DNA from: Xylocopilactobacillus apis
GTDB lineage: Bacteria > Bacillota > Bacilli > Lactobacillales > Lactobacillaceae
NCBI RefSeq assembly: GCF_033095965.1
Contig: NZ_AP026801.1
Span: forward strand, 1,756,001 to 1,820,000
Reading direction: 5' to 3'
Length of the DNA stretch: 64,000 bases
Positions within the stretch are counted from its first letter, which is position 1; each line of letters begins with the position of its first letter. The position numbers and the translations under genes are program-made. Under the pieces are notes generated by a model that worked only from the letters and a program-made list of their open reading frames with translations, ran no database searches and was not told the origin of the DNA. This document shows positions 7,615 to 22,072 of this stretch, piece after piece.

Positions 7615-7742
7615 GAACATCTGTTCTCTTTGTTATACTTAAAAAGTTAGAAGTTTTATGGGCGGTGGCTGCATGAATTTCCAAGGAGGTGGTGCTGTAT
7701 GGAAATACGGAACAATCTTATTAGAAAGGATTCGCAGTCAGC

Positions 7743-7814
7743 TTGACTGTTTTTCAAGCTATCTCGTTGATGATTTCATTTGGCTTGGCTTTCAGCAACC
7801 ATCTTGAAACATAA
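7743..7814 (+). pseudogene. Holin-like type I toxin, copy 2, frameshifted
   Basis: The 5' half is nearly identical to copy 1 (TTG start, TVFQAISLMISFGL) but one extra base after FGL changes the end to AFSNHLET and removes most of the hydrophobic helix and the basic tail. The surrounding 300 bases, including upstream GGAGG-containing leader, antisense terminator, antisense promoter and mRNA terminator, are conserved with copy 1, so the whole module was duplicated and the toxin then lost. Confidence 0.65.
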
Positions 7815-12045: not shown

Positions 12046-12782
12046 CTATTTTAATATCTTGATTAACTCCCAAGATTTTCTAATCGATGCGTAGGCGACA
12101 CTCCCGTTATTAAAATACAGCTCGCGTTTATGGTTATCGAAATGTTCAAGCTGATCTAAATTAACCAAATAACTTCGATCACTGCGAAAAAGCATTGGAT
12201 ACTTCTCTTCTAAATCGTTCAAATTGCCGATAAATTCGGTCTTTTTGTCTTAGTAATTAACGTCACACGATGCGGATTTAGTTTTGACGTACTCAAATAG
12301 ATGATTTCAGAAATTGGAATGCTGTAATATTGCGTTCCAATGTGATAATTAAACATATTTTCTCTTTTGTATTCATCAGATTTCAAAAGATCATTCACCT
12401 TTAAAATATCTTCAATGATGTTTTGCTTAATATTATCAAGCCCTTTATCCTTTAAAATGTAGTCTAGAGGGGATACTTTGCGCTCAAGGGTCAAAATTGA
12501 AAGTTCATCATGAGTTGTAATAAAAACTATTTGAGCTCCTACAATCTGCTCACGAATCTTCATTGCCGTACTAAGCCCCTCATCTTTTTGTTTGCCGATT
12601 TGCATATCCAGAAAAAACAAACCCTGATGAGTTTGATCAACAAAATTCATCAACGTTTGCGAATTATCAGTTTCACAAATTAAGCCCATTGCGAGGTCAT
12701 GAATCATAATTGTATTTTTAATTATTGCTGCAAAATTAGCTCGCTGTTTGGAATCATCTTCCAACAAATATATTGGAAACAA
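12046..12782 (-). pseudogene. AgrA/ComE-like LytTR response regulator, frameshifted
   Basis: The receiver domain (LLEDDSKQR, LFFLDMQIG, VFITTHDE) is intact and is followed by the start of a LytTR domain (YYSIPISEIIYLSTSKLNPHR). At an A5 run (T5 on + strand, 12242-12246) the frame ends in TKTKRPNLSAI. One more A would continue into KTEFIGNLNDLEEKYPMLFR, SDRSYLVNLDQL and a stop at 12046, a full-length family member of about 245 residues. As sequenced the DNA-binding domain is lost. TTG start at 12782 with AGGAG upstream. It pairs with the sensor kinase gene four bases upstream. Confidence 0.85.
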
Positions 12783-12785
12783 ATC

Positions 12786-13553
12786 TTATTCTCCTGTAAT
12801 CATTAATGTTGCTTGGAAATGCTGTTTTACAACTTCCGTTTCGAAAAACAAATTTTCATTCTGCTTTACAATTTTATCAACGTTATTTAACCCAAAGCCT
12901 GAATGCCCCGACTTAGTGGTATAGCCACTTTGAGAAATCTGGCTTAGATCTTCTAGATCATTAACAAAGTTATCAACTGTAATCACAATTTGATCGTTTG
13001 ATTTAATTAAAGCACAAATTACTAATTTATTCTCTTCTTTTGTTGCCTGTTCAATTGCGTTATCTAACAATATTCCAATTACTCTAACAATTGATAAAAT
13101 ATCGTGATTTTTGATTTCAATCGATTCTGTAATTTCCAGCTCTAAATTAATTCCCAACTTTCTAGCATAGAAAAATTTTTCAATGATTAATCCTCTAATC
13201 GGTTCGTTTTTTAAATAATTAATGTTACTAATTGACTGATCTTCTAATTCACTTTGACTAGGCTGCTCCCTAACTAACTGCTCATAGTACTCTTTAAATT
13301 GTTTATGGTCTCCCTCTTTTACAAAACCTTCCAGAGCCAAAAGCATATTTTTATAATCATGTTTAAAATGACGTAGTTCTTGATATTGCTGTTCAATATT
13401 ATCAAGGTAGTCTTTTAATTGCTTATTTTGCGCAAATTTTATTTCAGTATCTCTTCGATAATTAAATGCTCGCACGAATGACACAATTACAAAGAAAGTT
13501 AAAATTATAAAAATTGCGAAGATGCCCAACACTAAATAGTTGATAATATTCAT
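12786..13553 (-). CDS. HPK10-type sensor histidine kinase, catalytic part (AgrC/ComD-like)
   Basis: About 255 residues: one transmembrane helix (residues 5-28), a coiled-coil linker, the H-box RHFKHDYKNMLLAL, the N-box LLDNAIEQA and the G-box SGHSGFGLNNV. This is the HPK10 family that senses peptide pheromones. Complete AgrC/ComD proteins have six or seven helices in front of this; here they are encoded by the separate upstream gene, with a 44-bp gap containing several stops, so the receptor is split rather than joined by one frameshift. ATG 13553 is preceded by a weak TAGG site; TTG 13556 is possible. Confidence 0.8.
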   Translation of the reverse strand: MNIINYLVLGIFAIFIILTFFVIVSFVRAFNYRRDTEIKFAQNKQLKDYLDNIEQQYQELRHFKHDYKNMLLALEGFVKEGDHKQFKEYYEQLVREQPSQSELEDQSISNINYLKNEPIRGLIIEKFFYARKLGINLELEITESIEIKNHDILSIVRVIGILLDNAIEQATKEENKLVICALIKSNDQIVITVDNFVNDLEDLSQISQSGYTTKSGHSGFGLNNVDKIVKQNENLFFETEVVKQHFQATLMITGE

Positions 13554-13597
13554 CAAACCTACAAACTTACTAGAATCGAGATTTATATTTATTGTTT

Positions 13598-14343: not shown

Positions 14344-14372
14344 TTGACGCAGATAAATGATTATGATTTAAT
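14344..14372 (+). promoter_or_regulatory. Promoter of aromatic amino-acid operon
   Basis: TTGACG (14344-14349) and TTTAAT (14367-14372) with 17-base spacing lie 32 bases before the leader peptide start. Confidence 0.65.
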
Positions 14373-14403
14373 GTAACCATTCAATAAACGAAAGGGAATC
14401 ATT

Positions 14404-14460
14404 ATGACACGCTGCATTTTAAATAAAGATTACTATTATGGCTTTGCTTATTTTAGCTAG
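14404..14460 (+). CDS. Tyr/Phe-rich leader peptide of the aromatic operon
   Basis: An 18-residue ORF, MTRCILNKDYYYGFAYFS, with AAAGGG eight bases before the ATG. Six of the last nine residues are Tyr (four) or Phe (two), the end products of the pathway encoded downstream. It ends at a TAG whose last base starts segment 1 of a chain of seven mutually exclusive RNA stems (14460-14609). This is the design of pheL/trpL-type attenuation leaders: the ribosome pauses at the Tyr/Phe codons when charged tRNA is scarce. Function is inferred from composition and the RNA fold; no published homologue was checked. Confidence 0.8.
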   Translation: MTRCILNKDYYYGFAYFS

Positions 14461-14619
14461 CGTCCGTAATTCTTATTGGATACGGACGCCAGAAATTGTC
14501 CGTGTCTGAGCAGAGTCATTTTGATCCACCAGCTAGACACAATGTGATCTAGCTTGAGCCATATCATCATTAGCTTAAAAACCAGTTAGATTACAACAGT
14601 CTAGCTGGTTTTTTTTATT
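14460..14619 (+). promoter_or_regulatory. Seven-segment transcription attenuator of the aromatic operon
   Basis: Segments: 1 GCGTCCGTA (14460-14468), 2 TACGGACGC (14481-14489), 3 GTCCGTGTCT (14498-14507), 4 AGCTAGACAC (14531-14540), 5 TGTGATCTAGCT (14543-14554), 6 ACCAGTTAGA with following TTACA (14581-14595), 7 TCTAGCTGGT (14600-14609) then T8. Neighbouring segments pair: 1:2 nine pairs, 2:3 six or seven, 3:4 six, 4:5 ten with a bulge, 5:6 twelve, 6:7 ten. A ribosome at the stop codon masks segment 1, giving 2:3, 4:5 and the 6:7 terminator. A ribosome stalled earlier leaves 1:2, 3:4 and the 5:6 antiterminator. No T-box motif is present. Confidence 0.8.
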
Positions 14620-14636: not shown

Positions 14637-15821
14637 ATGAATAAACGTCAACTATCGCTTAGTTTATACCTAAACTATTTCATCCATGGCTTTGGATTAA
14701 TTATCCTAACGCAAAATATGCAGGCCTTAAGTAATCATTGGCAGACCCCCATTGCTACAGTATCTTACGTCGTTTCAGGCGTTGGAATCGGTCGGCTGGT
14801 CGCTTACTTTATCCTGGGTAACTTATCTGACCACTTTGGACGGAAAATTTTCGTCAACGTTGGGATGCTCAGTTACTTTATCTTTTTTGTCGGAATGGCT
14901 TTTGTAAAAAATATCCAAGTGGCTTACATGCTGTCCATCTTAGCAGGAATTGCTAACTCTGCTCTTGATTCAGGTACTTATACTACTTTTATCGAGATGG
15001 GAAGTCCTCAAGGTTCCGCTAATGTTCTAATAAAAGCTTTTGTCTCATGCGGTGAATTTATCCTACCATTGGTAGTTGCGAACCTTGAATCTAATAAGCT
15101 CTGGTATGGTTGGTCATTCATGATTGCAGCAGTAATTTTAGTTTTCAATTTTGTTTTCTTAAATCGCCAAAAGTTCCCGCCCCGCAATCAAGACGATGTT
15201 GAAACTGAATCTGCCAGTCAAGAACTAACTGGCACAAAAAAAATAATAGTTTCCGTCAGTTTGATGGGCTACGGATATACAGCAATGGCCCTGATGATTT
15301 TATACACCCAGTGGATTACTCTTTTCGTTAGGAAAACTTTTAACTTTAGTATGTCTTTATCTCATTGGCTCTTATCTTTATACAGTATCGGTTCAATTAC
15401 GGGAGTTATTATAATTTTCCTTTTACTACGCAAAGGCATTCCTGAAAACAAACTGTTATTAATGCTTAATATCATGTCCTTGCTGGCATTAGCCATCGTT
15501 TGTTACAGTCCAATTGCTATTATTTCCATGCTGGCAGCTTTTGCTTTTGGATTTTCTGCTGCCGGCGGAGTACTGCAAATGGGACTTAACCTTTTTATCA
15601 AACTCTATCCTCATGTCAAAGGTCGCATTACAGGAGTCTACTTTACCTTCGGCAGTCTGGCTTCATTTTCAATTCCGATTATTACCGGATGGCTGTCAAA
15701 ACAAAGTACAGCAAGTGCCATGCGTTTTGATTTAATAATCGGGATCGCTGGGGTAATATTTACCGGTCTTACCCACTGGGCACTTACAACTTCCAAAACT
15801 AATTTACAAAAGGAGCAATAA
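14637..15821 (+). CDS. MFS transporter of the aromatic operon
   Basis: 394 residues, twelve predicted helices, with the MFS signature GNLSDHFGRKIF between helices 2 and 3. It is the first structural gene after the attenuator (AAGGAG before ATG 14637) and is followed three bases later by aroC, so it is cotranscribed with the shikimate pathway. Import of shikimate/quinate or transport of an aromatic compound is the natural guess, but the substrate cannot be read from the sequence. It belongs to the drug/sugar-like MFS group rather than the known aromatic permease (APC) families. Confidence 0.8.
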   Translation: MNKRQLSLSLYLNYFIHGFGLIILTQNMQALSNHWQTPIATVSYVVSGVGIGRLVAYFILGNLSDHFGRKIFVNVGMLSYFIFFVGMAFVKNIQVAYMLSILAGIANSALDSGTYTTFIEMGSPQGSANVLIKAFVSCGEFILPLVVANLESNKLWYGWSFMIAAVILVFNFVFLNRQKFPPRNQDDVETESASQELTGTKKIIVSVSLMGYGYTAMALMILYTQWITLFVRKTFNFSMSLSHWLLSLYSIGSITGVIIIFLLLRKGIPENKLLLMLNIMSLLALAIVCYSPIAIISMLAAFAFGFSAAGGVLQMGLNLFIKLYPHVKGRITGVYFTFGSLASFSIPIITGWLSKQSTASAMRFDLIIGIAGVIFTGLTHWALTTSKTNLQKEQ

Positions 15822-15823
15822 AT

Positions 15824-16990
15824 ATGATTAATTACGTTACTGCTGGAGAATCTCACGGTCCGCAATTAACTGGCATTATCACTGGGATTCCGGCTGGTTT
15901 GAAATTAGACATTAAAGAAATTAATGATGCTTTAGCTGCTCGGCAGGGTGGGTTTGGCCGAGGAGACCGCCAAAAGATTGAACACGATTCAGTAGAAATC
16001 ACTGGTGGTGTCCGTCATGATGTTACTCTTGGAAGTCCAATCTCTTTAACAATTCAAAATCGGGACTATTCCCATTGGAGTCAAATTATGGATCCCATTA
16101 GTCCAGCGACCCAAAGTAATACTTTACGCCAAATTACTCGTCCGAGACCTGGACATGCTGATTTGGTCGGTGGTATGAAATATGGTCAAAGTGATCTAAG
16201 AAATGTCTTAGAACGTTCTTCTGCCCGTGAAACAGCAATGCGGGTCGCACTGGGACAAATCTGCAAGCAATTATTAGCCCAGCTTGATATTAATTTGATT
16301 GGCTATGTTCAACAAATCGGCGCAAATAAGATTCCAGACCAAGATTTATCTGTTCAAGAAATTAACAACGCAATTGAACAAAATGACCTCCGAATTTTAG
16401 ACTCGAATTTTGTTGAACAAATTCACAATTCAATCTTACAGGCAAAAAAAGACGGCGACACTCTTGGTGGAATTATTAAGGTCGTTGTCGAAAACGTACC
16501 TGCAGGTTTAGGAAGCTATATTAGTTGGGATACAAAACTAGACGGTCAATTAGCTGGAGCGGTTATGGGAATCAATGCGATGAAAGGTGTTGAAATCGGC
16601 GATGGCTTTGCTGCTGCTGGCAAACCCGGCAGCCAAGTCATGGACGAAATTGATTGGAATCCTGATACCGGCTGGAGTCGGATAACCAATCATCTCGGAG
16701 GTTTTGAAGGCGGCATGACTAACAGTATGCCGCTTGTTATCAAAGCAGCAATGAAACCAATCCCAACTCTTTATAAACCGCTGCAAACTGTGGACATCAA
16801 AACTAAAGAAAAGCAAAAAGCTCAAGTTGAACGATCAGATACTACGGCAATCGTGCCAGCCTCGATTGTAGTCGAAAGTGTGGTTGCAATTGAAATTGCG
16901 AAAGCTATTACCGCAACTTTTGAGGCAAGCAACTTAGATCGTCTAGAAAAAGAACTCCACAATTATCGGGAAGAATTGCTTCGATACTAA
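15824..16990 (+). CDS. aroC: Chorismate synthase
   Basis: 388 residues, normal length. The N-terminal GESHGPQLTGIITGIPAGL motif, the GRGDRQKIE segment, RPGHADLVGGMKYG and the C-terminal GGMTNSMPLVIKAAMKPIPT are diagnostic. The enzyme converts 5-enolpyruvylshikimate 3-phosphate to chorismate using reduced FMN. AAGGAG precedes the ATG and the gene follows the MFS transporter by two bases. It is placed before aroA although it acts after it. Confidence 0.95.
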   Translation: MINYVTAGESHGPQLTGIITGIPAGLKLDIKEINDALAARQGGFGRGDRQKIEHDSVEITGGVRHDVTLGSPISLTIQNRDYSHWSQIMDPISPATQSNTLRQITRPRPGHADLVGGMKYGQSDLRNVLERSSARETAMRVALGQICKQLLAQLDINLIGYVQQIGANKIPDQDLSVQEINNAIEQNDLRILDSNFVEQIHNSILQAKKDGDTLGGIIKVVVENVPAGLGSYISWDTKLDGQLAGAVMGINAMKGVEIGDGFAAAGKPGSQVMDEIDWNPDTGWSRITNHLGGFEGGMTNSMPLVIKAAMKPIPTLYKPLQTVDIKTKEKQKAQVERSDTTAIVPASIVVESVVAIEIAKAITATFEASNLDRLEKELHNYREELLRY

Positions 16991-17000
16991 GGAGATTAAA

Positions 17001-17528
17001 ATGAATGTCCATACCTTAGGTCCAAGTGATACTGATAGCTATGCAGCAGCAGCTGACTATAATTCCCACTATCAAAATAATCTTGCCCAAATTATCTGCC
17101 ATAAAAGTTTTGAAGAGATCCTCACTAACTTGGCAGACTATTCAAAAGAGTATTTAATCATTCCAACAGCTTTTAAATCAAAGAGCTTACACGCAAGCTG
17201 GGGTGACGTTCATTATACCTTGCTGGATCAAATGAACTTAATTACTTCTTTTATCACCAAGCTAGATCCTTTAGTTGTGGTCAAAAGGATTAATGCAGCA
17301 AATAAAATTGGATATACTCATGCAGCAACCGCCCAACTTTTGAAACACACAATTAAAGACGTATCAGTTATAACTACCCCTAGTAAATATCTGGCGTACC
17401 AAGCTTATCAGAAAAATAAAGCTGCATATGTCTTAACGAATACCAAAAACATTAAACTAACCGCCAAAGAAACTATTATTAAAAGTTTTTCCCCCTCAAT
17501 GGTGTGGTGTTTATATCAAATTAATTAG
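17001..17528 (+). CDS. Prephenate dehydratase-like protein lacking the usual catalytic motif
   Basis: 175 residues. The start, MNVHTLGPSDTDSYAAA, resembles the LGPxGTxSxxAA opening of prephenate dehydratases, and length fits the two-lobed catalytic region without the ACT domain. The conserved TRF motif expected near the end is not found (the corresponding end reads SFSPSMVWCLYQIN), so dehydratase activity is doubtful. The position between aroC and aroA, with AAGGAGAT before the ATG, and the Tyr/Phe leader fit a role in phenylalanine synthesis or sensing. It may be a divergent enzyme or a binding protein of the same fold. Confidence 0.6.
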   Translation: MNVHTLGPSDTDSYAAAADYNSHYQNNLAQIICHKSFEEILTNLADYSKEYLIIPTAFKSKSLHASWGDVHYTLLDQMNLITSFITKLDPLVVVKRINAANKIGYTHAATAQLLKHTIKDVSVITTPSKYLAYQAYQKNKAAYVLTNTKNIKLTAKETIIKSFSPSMVWCLYQIN

Positions 17529-17536
17529 GTGAAATT

Positions 17537-18838
17537 ATGAAATTAAAATCTTTTTCTAAAAATGGTCTTCACGGACAAATTAGTGTTCCCGGTGATAAAA
17601 GCATTTCTCACCGCGGACTAATTCTCGGAGCCATAAGTGACGGCACGACCCAACTGCATCACTTTTTAGCAGCCGATGACTGCTTATCGACTTTAAATGC
17701 GCTAAAAGACCTCGGGGTCCCCATTACCCGCAAAAATGATTTCCTTACAATCGAAGGTCAGGGATTAACTGGATTAAAAAGACCAACCAAAAGTTTAGAC
17801 ATGGGAAACGCAGGCACTGCAACTCGACTTCTAGCAGGCCTCTTAGCCGGACAATCATTTAATTCCACTTTAATCGGTGACTCCTCACTAAGCAAAAGAC
17901 CCATGGGGAGAGTCCAGACGCCCCTTCAGCAGATGGGCGCCAAAATTGAATTAACTGACGGACATTTACCAATGACCATCACTGGCCAGAAGTTACACTC
18001 AATTGATTACCAAATGACGGTTGCAAGCGCCCAAGTTAAGAGTGCCCTAATTTTTGCAGCCTTACAGGCAGATGAAAAAAGTACCATTAAAGAATTCTTG
18101 CCGACCCGCGATCATACTGAACGCTTACTTAATAAATTTGGAGCTAACATAACTACAAGTGATGACGGATACACGATTACAGTCGAACCTCATCCTCATC
18201 TAGTCGGACAGGATTTAACTATTCCAGGTGACATGTCTTCGGCTGCATTCTTTATTACCGCCGCCAGTATTATCCCTAACTCTAAAATCACAATTTTAAA
18301 TGTCGGAATTAATCCCACGCGTACTGGTTTATTAAAGATTTTAGAAAAAATGGGCGGAAAAGTTAAGATCATTAATCGTTCTCAATCAGACGGCGAGCCA
18401 ACAGCCGATCTAGAAATTGAAAGTGCACAGTTAAAACCAATTAAAATCACTTCCAAAGATATCCCAGACGTAATTGATGAATTACCATTAGTTGCCCTTT
18501 TAGCAGCTGCTGCAAACGGCGTGAGTGAAGTTACGGGAGCTCTTGAATTAAGAGTAAAAGAAACCGATCGTATCTCAACTATTGTCACTGAATTACAAAA
18601 ACTAGGCATTAAAATTACTGAGCTTACAGACGGATTTATTATTGATGGTCGAGATGATTGGCAGATTCAAGATTCAAAATTAGATAGTCACGGTGACCAT
18701 CGGATTGGAATGATGTTAGCCATTGCAGCGTTGAGAGTAAAAGAACCTCTTACTTTAGAAAATGAAGATGCCATTAGTATTTCTTATCCTCAATTTTTCG
18801 ACGATCTAAAGGAGATTGAAGATGCAGATTCTAATTAA
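17537..18838 (+). CDS. aroA: 3-phosphoshikimate 1-carboxyvinyltransferase (EPSP synthase)
   Basis: 433 residues. PGDKSISHRGLILGAISDG near the N-terminus, the GNAGTATRLLAGLL motif, SKRPMGRVQTPL and the C-terminal HGDHRIGMMLAIAAL are diagnostic of EPSP synthase. It joins phosphoenolpyruvate to shikimate 3-phosphate. The GNAGT sequence (rather than GNSGT) is seen in class I and II forms and cannot alone define glyphosate behaviour. AGGTGA precedes ATG 17537; the end overlaps tyrA by 17 bases. Confidence 0.95.
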   Translation: MKLKSFSKNGLHGQISVPGDKSISHRGLILGAISDGTTQLHHFLAADDCLSTLNALKDLGVPITRKNDFLTIEGQGLTGLKRPTKSLDMGNAGTATRLLAGLLAGQSFNSTLIGDSSLSKRPMGRVQTPLQQMGAKIELTDGHLPMTITGQKLHSIDYQMTVASAQVKSALIFAALQADEKSTIKEFLPTRDHTERLLNKFGANITTSDDGYTITVEPHPHLVGQDLTIPGDMSSAAFFITAASIIPNSKITILNVGINPTRTGLLKILEKMGGKVKIINRSQSDGEPTADLEIESAQLKPIKITSKDIPDVIDELPLVALLAAAANGVSEVTGALELRVKETDRISTIVTELQKLGIKITELTDGFIIDGRDDWQIQDSKLDSHGDHRIGMMLAIAALRVKEPLTLENEDAISISYPQFFDDLKEIEDADSN

Positions 18839-19916
18839 AGGAATGGGATTAATTGGCAGTTCATTAGCTCTCGCAATTAAAGAAGATCATCCGGCTGCTA
18901 ATTTAATTGGCATGGATCTTAATCAAGACAGCTTAAATTACGCTTTACGCCATGGAGTTGTAGACGGAATAACCGATAACTTTAACGAAACTGCCCAAAA
19001 AGCTGATGTCATTATTTTAGCCTGCCCCGTTCAAACCATCATTAAAGATTTAGCAGTTTTAGCTGAACTTCCACTTAAACCCAATGTTATCGTCACTGAT
19101 GTCGGCAGCACTAAAGACAAAATCATGGATGCTGCGTTACCCCTTCAGCAAAAAGGAATAACTTTTATTGGCGGTCATCCAATGGCAGGATCACATAAAT
19201 CGGGTGCCATTGCTGGCAGAGCTAATTTGTTTGAAAATGCTTTTTACTTTTTAGTTCCAGGGCACGCACCTAAAAAAACTGTTGATATGTTACAGGAATT
19301 ACTCACTGCTGCTCATGTGAAATGGCTAATTATTGATTCTAAGGAACATGACCAAATTGTCGGACAGATCAGTCATCTACCGCATATTGTCGCAGCAGCT
19401 CTGGTAAATGAAACTCAAGTAACCCTTGCAGAATTCCCGCTTGGTTTAAGATTAGCTGCTGGAGGATTTAAAAGCATCACTCGCATTGCAAGTTCAGATC
19501 CACAAATGTGGACTGATATTTTATCTTCTAATTCTCCGATTCTTATTAATCAACTGGAAGATTATATTAATGAGCTTTCAGAGTTAAAAGAAGCTTTAGC
19601 TGACAAGAACCTAACAATTATTAAAAACTTTTTTGCTGCTGCCAAAGTTACTCGCGATCATTTAGGCCCAGATCAAATGGGTAGTTTGCCTAATTTCTTT
19701 GATTTATTCTTAAACATTCCTGATCGAGCGGGAGCCATTGCCAAAATTACTAAAATTTTAGCTGAAGAAAATCTAAGTTTAATTAATATTAATATTCTAG
19801 AAATGCGTGAAGAAATTGATGGAGTTCTGCAGTTAACATTCGGCGATCTAGCCACTCAAAAAAGAGCAGATTCAATTTTACAAAAAGCAGGATACCAAGT
19901 TATCAGGAGGAACTAA
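18822..19916 (+). CDS. tyrA: Prephenate dehydrogenase with C-terminal ACT domain
   Basis: 364 residues. The Rossmann motif GMGLIGSSLALAIK lies at the N-terminus, GGHPMAGSHKSG and QISHLPHIVAAAL follow, and the last 75 residues (PDRAGAIAKITKILAEENLS) form an ACT domain that normally mediates feedback inhibition by tyrosine. It oxidises prephenate to 4-hydroxyphenylpyruvate. The ATG at 18822 with AAGGAG seven bases upstream is preferred over an in-frame TTG at 18816. It overlaps the aroA end. Confidence 0.93.
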   Translation: MQILIKGMGLIGSSLALAIKEDHPAANLIGMDLNQDSLNYALRHGVVDGITDNFNETAQKADVIILACPVQTIIKDLAVLAELPLKPNVIVTDVGSTKDKIMDAALPLQQKGITFIGGHPMAGSHKSGAIAGRANLFENAFYFLVPGHAPKKTVDMLQELLTAAHVKWLIIDSKEHDQIVGQISHLPHIVAAALVNETQVTLAEFPLGLRLAAGGFKSITRIASSDPQMWTDILSSNSPILINQLEDYINELSELKEALADKNLTIIKNFFAAAKVTRDHLGPDQMGSLPNFFDLFLNIPDRAGAIAKITKILAEENLSLININILEMREEIDGVLQLTFGDLATQKRADSILQKAGYQVIRRN

Positions 19917-19917
19917 A

Positions 19918-20427
19918 ATGAAAGCTATTTTGATTGGATTCATGGGAAGCGGTAAAACGACCGTTGGTCAATTACTTGCTGAACAATTGAAAACTAAGCA
20001 TATTGATTTGGACAACTTAATCGTCGAAGAAGCAGGAGAATCAATTTCAGAAATTTTTGCAAAACATGGTGAGGCTTATTTTCGCAAACTGGAGCAGCAA
20101 ATTCTAAGCAAAGCTTTAAAACTCCCCGGAATTTTATCGACCGGCGGAGGTACACCAACTATTTCTGCTAATGTATCAATGTTATTAGCTAATAAAGCTC
20201 CAATTATTTGGCTGGAAACCAGCAATCAAGCTACGATAAACCATCTAAAAAATGATACCAGCAGACCATTAATTAAAGACTTAGATCAAGAAGGACTATT
20301 AAAACTAAAAAATCAGCGATCTGAACAATACGAAAAAATCGCTGATTTAACTATCAAAACGGATTGCTTAACACCGCTGCAGATTATGCTGCAAATTAAA
20401 GACTGGTTACTCAGAAAGGACCTATAA
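19918..20427 (+). CDS. aroK: Shikimate kinase
   Basis: 169 residues. GFMGSGKTTVGQLLA is the P-loop, HIDLDNLI carries the substrate-binding Asp, YFRKLEQQIL the conserved Arg, STGGGTP the GGG loop and SRPL the lid Arg. It phosphorylates shikimate with ATP. AGGAGG lies just before the ATG, one base after the tyrA stop; the TAATG overlap with aroE indicates tight coupling. Confidence 0.95.
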   Translation: MKAILIGFMGSGKTTVGQLLAEQLKTKHIDLDNLIVEEAGESISEIFAKHGEAYFRKLEQQILSKALKLPGILSTGGGTPTISANVSMLLANKAPIIWLETSNQATINHLKNDTSRPLIKDLDQEGLLKLKNQRSEQYEKIADLTIKTDCLTPLQIMLQIKDWLLRKDL

Positions 20428-21302
20428 TGAACGAACGAATCGACGGACACACAATTTTAATTGGATTAATGGCATATCCCATTAGACACTCCATGTCACC
20501 TACTATGCACAACAATGCTTTTGCTAAACTGGGACTCAACTATGCATATTTAGCTTTTGAAATAACTAACGATAACCTACCGCAGGCAATTGATGCTATA
20601 CGTACTCTTGATATGCGGGGATCAAATATCTCAATGCCCAATAAACAAAAGGTTATTCCCTTATTGGATAAACTTGATCCAGCCGCCGAAATGGTCGGAG
20701 CGGTTAATACAATCGTAAACGATCACGGAACGCTAACTGGTTATGTTACTGACGGTACTGGTTTTATGCAGGCTTTAAAAGATGAAAATTTAGATATTAT
20801 TGGTGAAAAAATGACCCTTGCTGGAGGCGGCGGGGCTGGAACTGCAATTGCCATTCAAGCAGCAATTGATGGCGTCAAAGAAATTTCTATTTTTAATCGG
20901 CACGATGATTTATGGGAAAACGCTAAGCGTAATGTCGATATAATTAATGAAAATACTAATTGTAAAGCCACTCTCCATGAATTAGAAGACCAAGATGATT
21001 TTAAAAATGAAATTCAAGACTGTGCAATTTATTGCGATTCAACCGGTGTTGGAATGAAACCTTTAGAAGATCAGAGTCTGGTTAATGATCCAAGTTGGTT
21101 TAAAAAAGATATGATTGTCTACGATACCGTCTATGCTCCAAGAACTACTAAATTAATGAATATCGCTCAAGATGCAGGCGTGAAACATGTCTATAATGGG
21201 CTTTCGATGATGCTGGAACAAGGCGCCGAAGCCTTCAAACTTTGGACTAATCAAGAAATGCCCGTTGAGTATATCCGTGATTTATTATTTAGCGAGGAAT
21301 AA
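20427..21302 (+). CDS. aroE: Shikimate dehydrogenase
   Basis: 291 residues. The substrate site YPIRHSMSPTMHNNAF, the catalytic Lys in GSNISMPNKQKV, VGAVNTI and the NADP-binding AGGGGAGTAIAIQAA are all present, followed by GLSMMLEQGAEAF. The usual motif is NVTxPxK; here NISMPNK keeps the catalytic Lys. It reduces 3-dehydroshikimate. It overlaps the aroK stop by one base. Confidence 0.94.
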   Translation: MNERIDGHTILIGLMAYPIRHSMSPTMHNNAFAKLGLNYAYLAFEITNDNLPQAIDAIRTLDMRGSNISMPNKQKVIPLLDKLDPAAEMVGAVNTIVNDHGTLTGYVTDGTGFMQALKDENLDIIGEKMTLAGGGGAGTAIAIQAAIDGVKEISIFNRHDDLWENAKRNVDIINENTNCKATLHELEDQDDFKNEIQDCAIYCDSTGVGMKPLEDQSLVNDPSWFKKDMIVYDTVYAPRTTKLMNIAQDAGVKHVYNGLSMMLEQGAEAFKLWTNQEMPVEYIRDLLFSEE

Positions 21303-21304
21303 TC

Positions 21305-22072
21305 GTGTCAGGAACAACAAGAATCAGAAATATTACTTTAGGAGTTGGACGACCGAAAATTGCAGTGCCGATTATTGGTACTAATAAAGAAGAAATCATT
21401 ACCCAAGCTGCAAAAGCAAAAGATACTCAACCAGATTTAATTGAGTGGCGCATTGATTATTTTGAACAAGTAATGAATTTCAGTGCGTTACAATCTGTCG
21501 GTCAAGAATTGCGCCAAACTATTGGCGATATCGCACTTCTTACAACTTTTAGAACTAAAAACGAAGGCGGACAGATAGAACTAGCTCACGTAGAGGATTA
21601 CGCCGATATTTGTCAAAGCGTTTTACAAGGTAAGTTCACTGATGCCATTGATATCGAACGATTTTATCAAGACGATATTGTAAAACAAATCGTGCAGCTT
21701 GCCCATCAAGACAATGTTATTGTAATAATGAGCAATCATGATTTTGTTAAAACTCCAAGCGCCAAAGATATCAAACAACGACTTTTAGACATGATTGAAT
21801 TTGGAGCCGACGCAGCAAAAATTGCTGTTATGCCTGAGTCTTTAGCTGATGTTTTAACACTAATGACCGCAACACAGGAAGCGTCAAAGATCGCTAATCG
21901 TCCTCTGATTACCATGTCCATGGGGGATATTGGTAAAGTTTCCCGCATTGCAGGAGAAGTCTTTGGTTCAACTGTAACTTTTGCAACTGTCGGGGCTGCA
22001 TCTGCTCCCGGTCAAATCCCAATTGAACATTTACGACAAGATTTAATAGATTTACAGCTAGACCCTCATTGA
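21305..22072 (+). CDS. aroD: 3-dehydroquinate dehydratase, type I
   Basis: 255 residues. The type I motifs EWRIDYFE, TTFRTKNEGG, the catalytic His in VIMSNHDF and the Schiff-base Lys in AAKIAVMP, then SMGDIGKVSRIAGEVFGS are all visible. It dehydrates 3-dehydroquinate. GTG start at 21305 with GAGGAA before it, two bases after aroE. It is the last gene; a terminator overlaps its stop codon. DAHP synthase and aroB are not in the window and must be elsewhere. Confidence 0.95.
   Translation: MSGTTRIRNITLGVGRPKIAVPIIGTNKEEIITQAAKAKDTQPDLIEWRIDYFEQVMNFSALQSVGQELRQTIGDIALLTTFRTKNEGGQIELAHVEDYADICQSVLQGKFTDAIDIERFYQDDIVKQIVQLAHQDNVIVIMSNHDFVKTPSAKDIKQRLLDMIEFGADAAKIAVMPESLADVLTLMTATQEASKIANRPLITMSMGDIGKVSRIAGEVFGSTVTFATVGAASAPGQIPIEHLRQDLIDLQLDPH

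Follow-up and report, generated by a model that had tools for sequence, protein, structure and literature searches.

A candidate seven-segment leader-peptide attenuator before an aromatic amino acid operon in Lactobacillaceae

The aromatic operon of Xylocopilactobacillus apis is preceded by an element that, judging from comparative sequence evidence, is very probably a leader-peptide (ribosome-mediated) transcription attenuator, sensing tyrosine and phenylalanine through translation and controlling the operon. We examined it within a 64,000-nucleotide stretch of the genome (NZ_AP026801.1, positions 1,756,001 to 1,820,000), hereafter the window, to which all coordinates refer unless stated otherwise; the genome is a single 2.27 Mb contig. 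Four observations form the basis of this reading: a leader open reading frame (ORF), RNA pairings together with their covariation, a match between leader codons and the downstream gene, and the distribution of the leader across its family. An earlier sequence-only reading had proposed a ribosome-mediated attenuator of seven segments before the aromatic operon, and conserved codons, mutually exclusive sets of stems, and codon content that tracks the downstream gene all argue in its favor.

Results

Leader ORF and downstream operon

The leader ORF, MTRCILNKDYYYGFAYFS (14404-14460, forward strand), begins with an ATG at 14404, stops with a TAG at 14458-14460, and is preceded by a Shine-Dalgarno (SD)-like AAAGGGA at 14391-14397 on the same strand. 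The Tyr/Phe-rich peptide ending in YYYGFAYFS, first noticed by the sequence-only reading, is therefore present with start, stop, and SD-like sequence. Inspection of the sequence also revealed a promoter-like TTGACG-17 nt-TTTAAT (14344-14372, forward strand); a generic promoter scan of the window called none on the leader ORF's strand, 14344-14372 included. Upstream of the leader and divergent from it, two reverse-strand ORFs (12219-13556) resemble, by eye, a response regulator and a histidine kinase. Elsewhere in the window, 7624-7814 (forward strand) matches the Rfam Listeria small RNA rli28 at 46.2 bits, against a threshold of 45.

The leader, its segments, and a terminator with a T8 tract precede an MFS-aroC-aroA-tyrA-aroK-aroE-aroD operon, with a pheA-like gene between aroC and aroA. 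All of these genes lie on the forward strand. The first encodes an MFS transporter (14637-15821; PF07690) and is followed by aroC (chorismate synthase, 15824-16990; PF01264), a probable divergent prephenate dehydratase gene (pheA-like, 17001-17528), aroA (EPSP synthase, 17537-18838; PF00275), tyrA (prephenate dehydrogenase, 18816-19916; PF02153 and PF20463), aroK (shikimate kinase, 19918-20427; PF01202), aroE (shikimate dehydrogenase, 20427-21302; PF08501 and PF18317), and aroD (type I 3-dehydroquinase, 21305-22072; PF01487). The pheA-like assignment comes from sub-threshold matches, namely PF00800 (E = 0.017; 15.4 bits, under a cut-off of 25.2 bits) and NCBIfam prephenate dehydratases (E = 0.0094 and 0.019).

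Seven segments and a terminator

Seven forward-strand segments lie between the stop codon and the first gene. S1 (14457-14468) overlaps the TAG, in agreement with the proposal that the first stem starts at the stop codon. S2 (14478-14492) can pair with S1 or S3, S3 (14497-14508) with S2 or S4, S4 (14528-14541) with S3, S5, or S7, and S5 (14543-14556) with S4 or S6. S6 (14577-14595) forms the 5' arm of the terminator or alternatively pairs with S5, and S7 (14599-14616) comprises the 3' arm and the T8 tract. All six of the neighbor pairings that had been proposed were found: S1:S2 (14457-68/14481-92, one mismatch), S2:S3 (14478-88/14497-507), S3:S4 (14502-08/14534-40), S4:S5 (14531-37/14548-54), S5:S6 (14543-54/14584-95, the 12-bp antiterminator of the sequence-only reading), and S6:S7 (14577-90/14600-13). 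The proposed terminator was likewise located, with its stem at 14577-14613 and T8 at 14609-14616. The element thus combines the general features of leader-peptide attenuators: an upstream ORF with an SD, richness in cognate codons, and an intrinsic terminator with a mutually exclusive antiterminator.

Two further pairings were absent from the earlier reading. S4 can form 11 bp with S7 (14528-38/14599-609), and the control codons themselves, around Y-G-F-A-Y (S0, 14439-14450, forward strand), pair with L, the linker between S3 and S4 (14507-14518, forward strand). L overlaps the last two bases of S3, and S0:L overlaps the S3:S4 helix in the window by two bases.

The window fold is beyond chance. 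The 261-nt region folds at −79.9 kcal/mol (z = −7.17), whereas 200 dinucleotide shuffles averaged −51.07 (SD 4.02) and none of them did as well. Because the fold beats the shuffles and relatives keep the pairings by two-sided changes, the pairings of the window are not a product of chance. With a match to the Rfam T-box model as the criterion, the element is not a T-box: that model gave no match in the window, neither at the gathering cut-off nor at E values up to 5.

Two alternative structures are kept in relatives

We collected 60 leaders and, after removing five of other architecture and 17 near-duplicates, aligned 38. The OFF set (S2:S3, S4:S5, and S6:S7) is paired in 97.0% of cells, with two-sided changes at 14 of 26 pairs and 62 such cells versus 16.8 in shuffles, which ignore relatedness. 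The ON set (S1:S2, S3:S4, and S5:S6) is paired in 94.0% of cells, with two-sided changes at 11 of 21 pairs and 54 such cells versus 18.5 in shuffles that again ignore relatedness. Pairing falls to 44% or less when either structure is shifted by one to three alignment columns. Between lineages, CAGCTAG-type and GACTAG-type arms swap together in S4, S5, S6, and S7. The weakest helix of the alignment is S1:S2 (85.7%), at least partly owing to misaligned Fructobacillus-type rows. Both sets are therefore kept by two-sided changes, the covariation across relatives that the sequence-only reading had named as a check. That reading had also been staked on the conservation of leader codons and pairings in relatives, and both are conserved.

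From this arrangement we infer ribosome stalling, an order of events, termination or antitermination in the cell, and a role for S0. When Tyr-tRNA or Phe-tRNA is short, the ribosome would stall on the YYY-G-F-A-Y codons, upstream of S1. Free S1 would then pair with S2, after which S3:S4 and S5:S6 would form in turn, leaving S7 single-stranded, and transcription would continue into the operon genes. With ample Tyr and Phe, the ribosome would proceed to the stop codon and cover S1, so that S2:S3 forms, S4 stays free, and the terminator can fold, either as S4:S5 plus S6:S7 or, in the window, as a long S4:S7 plus S5:S6 hairpin. The decision point would be the capture of S4 by S3.

Distribution of the leader

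Searching 84,980 named genomes for the window AroC yielded 49 loci, all from close relatives because the search patterns were derived from that protein. At 48 of these 49 named Lactobacillaceae aroC loci, among them those of Lactiplantibacillus plantarum, Levilactobacillus, Lentilactobacillus, Secundilactobacillus, Fructobacillus, and Bombilactobacillus, an SD precedes a leader ORF rich in aromatic residues, which in most cases is of the YYxGFxYF type. At the 49th (L038), the contig starts 79 bases before aroC and the leader is consequently not visible. Regions around 14 more or less distant aroC genes in relatives gave a mixed picture: four have a seven-segment leader, which is absent from the other 10; five of those have another aromatic leader, and five, including two from the same genus (G001 and G003), have none by the ORF filter.

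A covariance model of the element, R1, matched, at E ≤ 0.01, 204 of 397 sampled family genomes, spread over 27 of 40 genera. A sample of the order gave 47 matching genomes of 198, eight of those being Lactobacillaceae, and one of the phylum gave 3 of 299, a single one of these 3 lying outside the order (G574, E = 0.0017). Seven R1 loci were inspected; six have a leader ORF, and one (L181) has none by the filter used. The sequence-only reading had considered such an element unusual for Lactobacillales, where T-boxes or repressors would be the norm; with matches in 204 of 397 family genomes, it is not unusual for its group. A weak R1 match in the window genome (L095, G000:C1:2241162-2241269; E = 0.164) has a last hairpin resembling the S6:S7 terminator.

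Leader codons track the downstream gene

We examined 88 leader contexts, 20 of which were chosen among weaker hits, so that they are not a random sample. The first gene after the leader encodes an MFS transporter in 28, AroC in 26, a TrpX-type protein in 13, AroE in 12, a pheA-like product in four, a transketolase in two, AroK in one, and a protein with no reference match in two. The aro operon leaders carry Tyr/Phe codons, and leaders before MFS genes average 3.5 Tyr, 2.2 Phe, and 0.2 Trp in their last ten residues. Before pheA-like genes the corresponding means are 0.0, 3.2, and 0.0, and all four such leaders have Phe without Tyr or Trp in this stretch. TrpX-type leaders (1.3, 3.8, and 0.0) are rich in Phe or Phe/Tyr, 7 of 13 being of an FxFSFFFR type that lacks Tyr in the last ten residues. 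The two Tyr-rich leaders before NhaC genes (4.0, 0.5, and 0.0) end in KYYRNYAYFA and KYYNNYAYRA; one gene (behind L187) encodes an NhaC-type protein at 361.1 bits against a cut-off of 370, and the other (L135) is an NhaC look-alike by resemblance only. NhaC genes of other Firmicutes carry Tyr T-boxes, according to the available part of one source (PMC2494555). This match of codon to gene is, among the comparisons made, the strongest sign that the codons are read.

Stand-alone pheA-like genes occur behind Phe leaders that lack nearby Tyr or Trp codons (L134, L138, L143, and L129). Phe/Tyr leaders (e.g., NFYFSYFR) also precede TrpX-type genes in other families of the order (L182, L183, L185, and L186). 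Aromatic leaders of the SYYYFWFM type and similar, with different stems, stand before transketolase (L087 and L090) and aroE (L083 and L085) genes; among the five-segment variants (these four and L086), only L083 folded as an odd relay.

The window genome itself contains a second R1 match, with the leader MIKNLKQNLQLNNRFYFSYFR, before a TrpX-family ABC substrate-binding protein (338.5 bits, under the 390-bit cut-off). A tandem copy of this TrpX-type gene has its own leader, MNKNLKHCLQLNNRYYYSYYG. The two genes with their Tyr/Phe leaders lie at L177:243-305 and from 1549 onward (G000:C1:1911400-1920000), and the codon content suggests that they transport Tyr/Phe rather than Trp.

Trp leader ORFs at the trpB motif

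In the part of the source available, the Rfam family RF04312, or 'trpB motif', is described as a strong riboswitch candidate with >900 representatives, for which its authors did not rule out a classic attenuator (Narunsky et al. 2024, PMC11109978). The window element is not a member, scoring 28.0 bits (E = 0.039) against a cut-off of 59 bits. A match occurs in 70 of 118 genomes of the order and exceeds the cut-off in 26. We examined the 30 best-scoring loci (L146-L175) for an SD-preceded ORF of 8-30 codons, with Trp in the last eight residues, upstream of the model. Such an ORF occurs at 28 of the 30, ending 5 to 26 bases before the model start and typically in WQNWRR or WQSWRR, whereas shuffled upstream DNA passed in 24 of 1500 cases. 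At the remaining two (L153 and L175), Trp lies farther from the ORF end. The window genome has a match of 44.5 bits (C1:466675-466771; region L176, G000:C1:466000-470500) behind an ORF identified by eye, MFNLKLDLNNRWQSR. Outside Lactobacillales, 3 of 299 phylum genomes have weak matches under the cut-off, and no Trp leader was found at these loci (L189-L191).

An alignment of 27 of 31 RF04312 leaders (four near-duplicates left out) revealed a comparable arrangement. S1, located at the stop or beyond it, has the left arm of P1 as its partner (91.0%), P1 itself corresponds to S2:S3 (96.2%), and S3:S4 (86.5%) and S4:S5 (89.1%) follow. In addition, S3 is complementary to the codon region (88.2% paired; nine two-sided cells versus 3.2, 1 of 500 shuffles). 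In 26 leaders, covering S1 lowered the predicted S3:S4 probability from 0.73 to 0.22, and masking S0 raised mean S3:S4 from 0.46 to 0.66, compared with 0.44 for a control mask (26 of 27 leaders). The aro element and the RF04312 loci thus share an odd-segment relay in which S1 at the stop pairs with S2, and S3 pairs with S2 or S4. From these alignments, RF04312 is probably the same kind of leader-peptide attenuator, with five segments and Trp codons. An LNN[RKA] stretch before the control codons is common to Trp, Phe, and Tyr leaders and suggests their common descent.

These loci bear on a different explanation for the aro element: that it is a small-molecule riboswitch or a protein-bound terminator, and that the short ORF is incidental or a mere translated spacer. 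A multi-stem leader with a terminator before biosynthesis and transport genes would fit that description, and RF04312, with which the wiring is shared, has been published as a strong riboswitch candidate (PMC11109978, available part). However, a riboswitch would not lead us to expect codons that track the gene, with Phe and no Tyr before pheA-like genes, Tyr before NhaC, and Trp before RF04312, nor a stop codon at the edge of S1. There is also no invariant core resembling a ligand pocket, the long helices vary freely between lineages, and no Rfam riboswitch model reached threshold for the window element. We consider a riboswitch or protein-bound terminator very improbable, and retain attenuation by a translated leader as the preferred reading.

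Control codons pair with the S3-S4 linker

On the alignment, S0:L is paired in 81.6% of cells, and of five measures two are weak, at 34 and 106 of 500 shuffles. Among 40 distinct pairs, however, own S0 and L sequences pair at −14.4 kcal/mol versus −10.6 when swapped (0 of 5000 permutations as good), with 17 of the 40 not below p = 0.01 against shuffled L. For 33 hand-chosen divergent leaders, the values were −17.4 for own and −12.8 for swapped sequences (0 of 20,000 swaps as good); the target in this comparison spans S3 to S4 and beyond, and some duplexes extend outside L. At one locus (L064), the Gly codon GGC is replaced by AAC, and the linker has GTTCC. Secundilactobacillus leaders have weak S0:L pairing. 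Overall, these comparisons leave S0:L a well-supported candidate pairing.

This pairing also informs the idea of an arrest-peptide switch, in which the nascent YYYGFAYF, and not slow decoding, would stall the ribosome on free aromatic amino acids. Conservation of residues beyond the control codons (G or D after YYY; final R/S/K/M) is what an arrest peptide would predict. Yet the Gly/Asp/Asn codon sits in S0 and covaries with L (GGC/GAC/AAC with GTC, GCC, GTT), and because the codon letters change together with L, RNA pairing explains their conservation. Moreover, the peptides differ strongly between gene classes that share the stems. An arrest peptide therefore seems to us highly improbable, and slow decoding of Tyr/Phe codons is the stalling step that we favor.

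Predicted folding with the ribosome in place

We folded the RNA downstream of the ribosome edge, up to just before S7, for all 38 leaders. The ribosome was assumed to cover 12 nt, an approximate value, counted from the start of the A-site codon. When the A site was placed on the sixth codon ahead of the stop, which in the window is the Gly codon after YYY, the RNA was free beginning 6 nt upstream of the stop, and mean predicted S3:S4 probability was 0.70. The mean was 0.57 for the third codon and 0.28 for the second, so that by this model the last Phe codon would be too near S1 to act efficiently. A ribosome at the stop gave a mean of 0.09, and RNA without a ribosome one of 0.17. The difference between the upstream and stop positions exceeded 0.2 in 29 of 38 leaders and was reversed in none. 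For the window, predicted values with the A site at the sixth codon were 0.97 for S1:S2, 0.96 for S3:S4, and 1.00 for S5:S6; with the ribosome at the stop, S2:S3 was 1.00 and S3:S4 0.00. From these window predictions, a ribosome held on the Tyr codons would favor the antiterminator relay and one at the stop would block it.

The sequence-only reading had described the parity of the segments as making this logic exact. The ribosome-bound predictions just before S7 agree with its direction, but exact parity is too simple, since S4 also pairs with S7. S4:S7 is paired in 92.7% of cells over the 38 leaders, its number of pair types being lower than the average of the shuffles; S4 is nearly a copy of S6, so that the other helices in part entail this one. 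In the window, a ribosome at the stop leaves S5:S6 predicted to have formed already before S7 appears (0.97), and instead of 4:5 plus 6:7 the predicted terminated form is a single long 4:7 plus 5:6 hairpin that runs up to the U tract.

Without a ribosome, plain parity would give read-through, whereas the low predicted S3:S4 suggests the opposite. S0:L may be one cause of this low value, and the pairing would tend to hold an untranslated transcript off. Masking S0 in the ribosome-free aro RNA raised mean S3:S4 from 0.17 to 0.32. The rise exceeded 0.2 in 8 of 38 leaders, as it did in 8 of 38 when 13 nt at the 5' end were masked as a control, and we accordingly set aside a description of S0:L as a proven superattenuator.

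At full-length equilibrium, a terminator form, S6:S7 or S4:S7, prevails whatever the ribosome state, and for this reason the switch can only work kinetically. The same preference would suit control at the level of translation, or a plain terminator between genes that limits expression constitutively and whose stems are decorative. A constitutive terminator, however, has no need of two alternative structures kept by two-sided changes, and the SD of the first gene lies downstream of the terminator. We regard this as the least credible of the explanations considered.

Discussion

The aro element may be one case of a broader system. The following joint reading, all four of its parts taken together, is in our judgment evenly poised between being right and being wrong: that odd-segment relay attenuators, possibly related to one another, are widespread in Lactobacillales; that those with seven segments precede aro, pheA-like, TrpX-type, and NhaC genes; that those with five segments and Trp codons precede trpB and TrpX-type genes and constitute the 'trpB motif'; and that, through pairing of the control codons to the antiterminator side, the operon is switched on by a stalled ribosome alone. 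If this is true, an absent ribosome and a finished one would both leave the operon off.

The aro element adds a probable case of leader-peptide attenuation to a group in which T-boxes are the more familiar control, among food and probiotic bacteria that include Lactiplantibacillus plantarum. Codon content predicts the role of the controlled transporter or enzyme, for example Phe for several TrpX paralogues. For the orphan riboswitch candidate RF04312, the alternative would be a Trp leader peptide lying outside the published model. The relay and the extra codon pairing also raise the question of whether an untranslated leader leads to termination or to read-through. In the literature that we searched, with subscription journals mostly outside its scope, we found descriptions neither of aromatic leader peptides from Lactobacillaceae nor of Trp leaders associated with the trpB motif.

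The classic enterobacterial attenuators of the trp, his, and phe operons have four segments, and a ribosome stalled on segment 1 allows 2:3 to antiterminate. The aro element resembles them in its short, cognate-rich leader ORF, its intrinsic terminator, its mutually exclusive antiterminator, and, as we infer here, read-through upon stalling. Unlike them, it has seven segments, and its control codons also pair downstream. In addition, it is the ribosome at the stop, not the stalled one, that would cover segment 1, and free segment 1 that would lead to antitermination. The sequence-only reading was right that the design departs from the four-segment one, S1 being located at the stop, downstream of the control codons.

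RF04312 is alike in being a Lactobacillales terminator/antiterminator before trpB or ABC transporter genes, as far as the available part of its description goes (PMC11109978), and in its S1:S2, S2:S3, S3:S4, and S4:S5 wiring; it differs in having five segments and Trp codons. Leader-peptide attenuation in Firmicutes is represented by the leucine-rich attenuator peptide of the Staphylococcus aureus ilv operon (PMC5794164) and by the His leader peptides of bacilli (PMC2965389), which, likened by description from the accessible portions of these papers, involve other amino acids and genes. The uORFC-13-1 motif before aroF in Acholeplasma likewise combines a Phe-coding upstream ORF and a terminator with a shikimate-pathway gene (PMC8632094); it belongs to another phylum and, in the portion of that paper available, no such relay is described, so that we set it apart by description. 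T-boxes share starvation-induced antitermination of amino acid genes in Firmicutes, but they sense uncharged tRNA directly, whereas the aro element has no Rfam T-box match. Thus, leader-peptide attenuation is itself well known, Firmicutes included, and what appears new is the use of seven segments, a ribosome whose role at the stop codon is inverted, and control codons that would double as an RNA strand.
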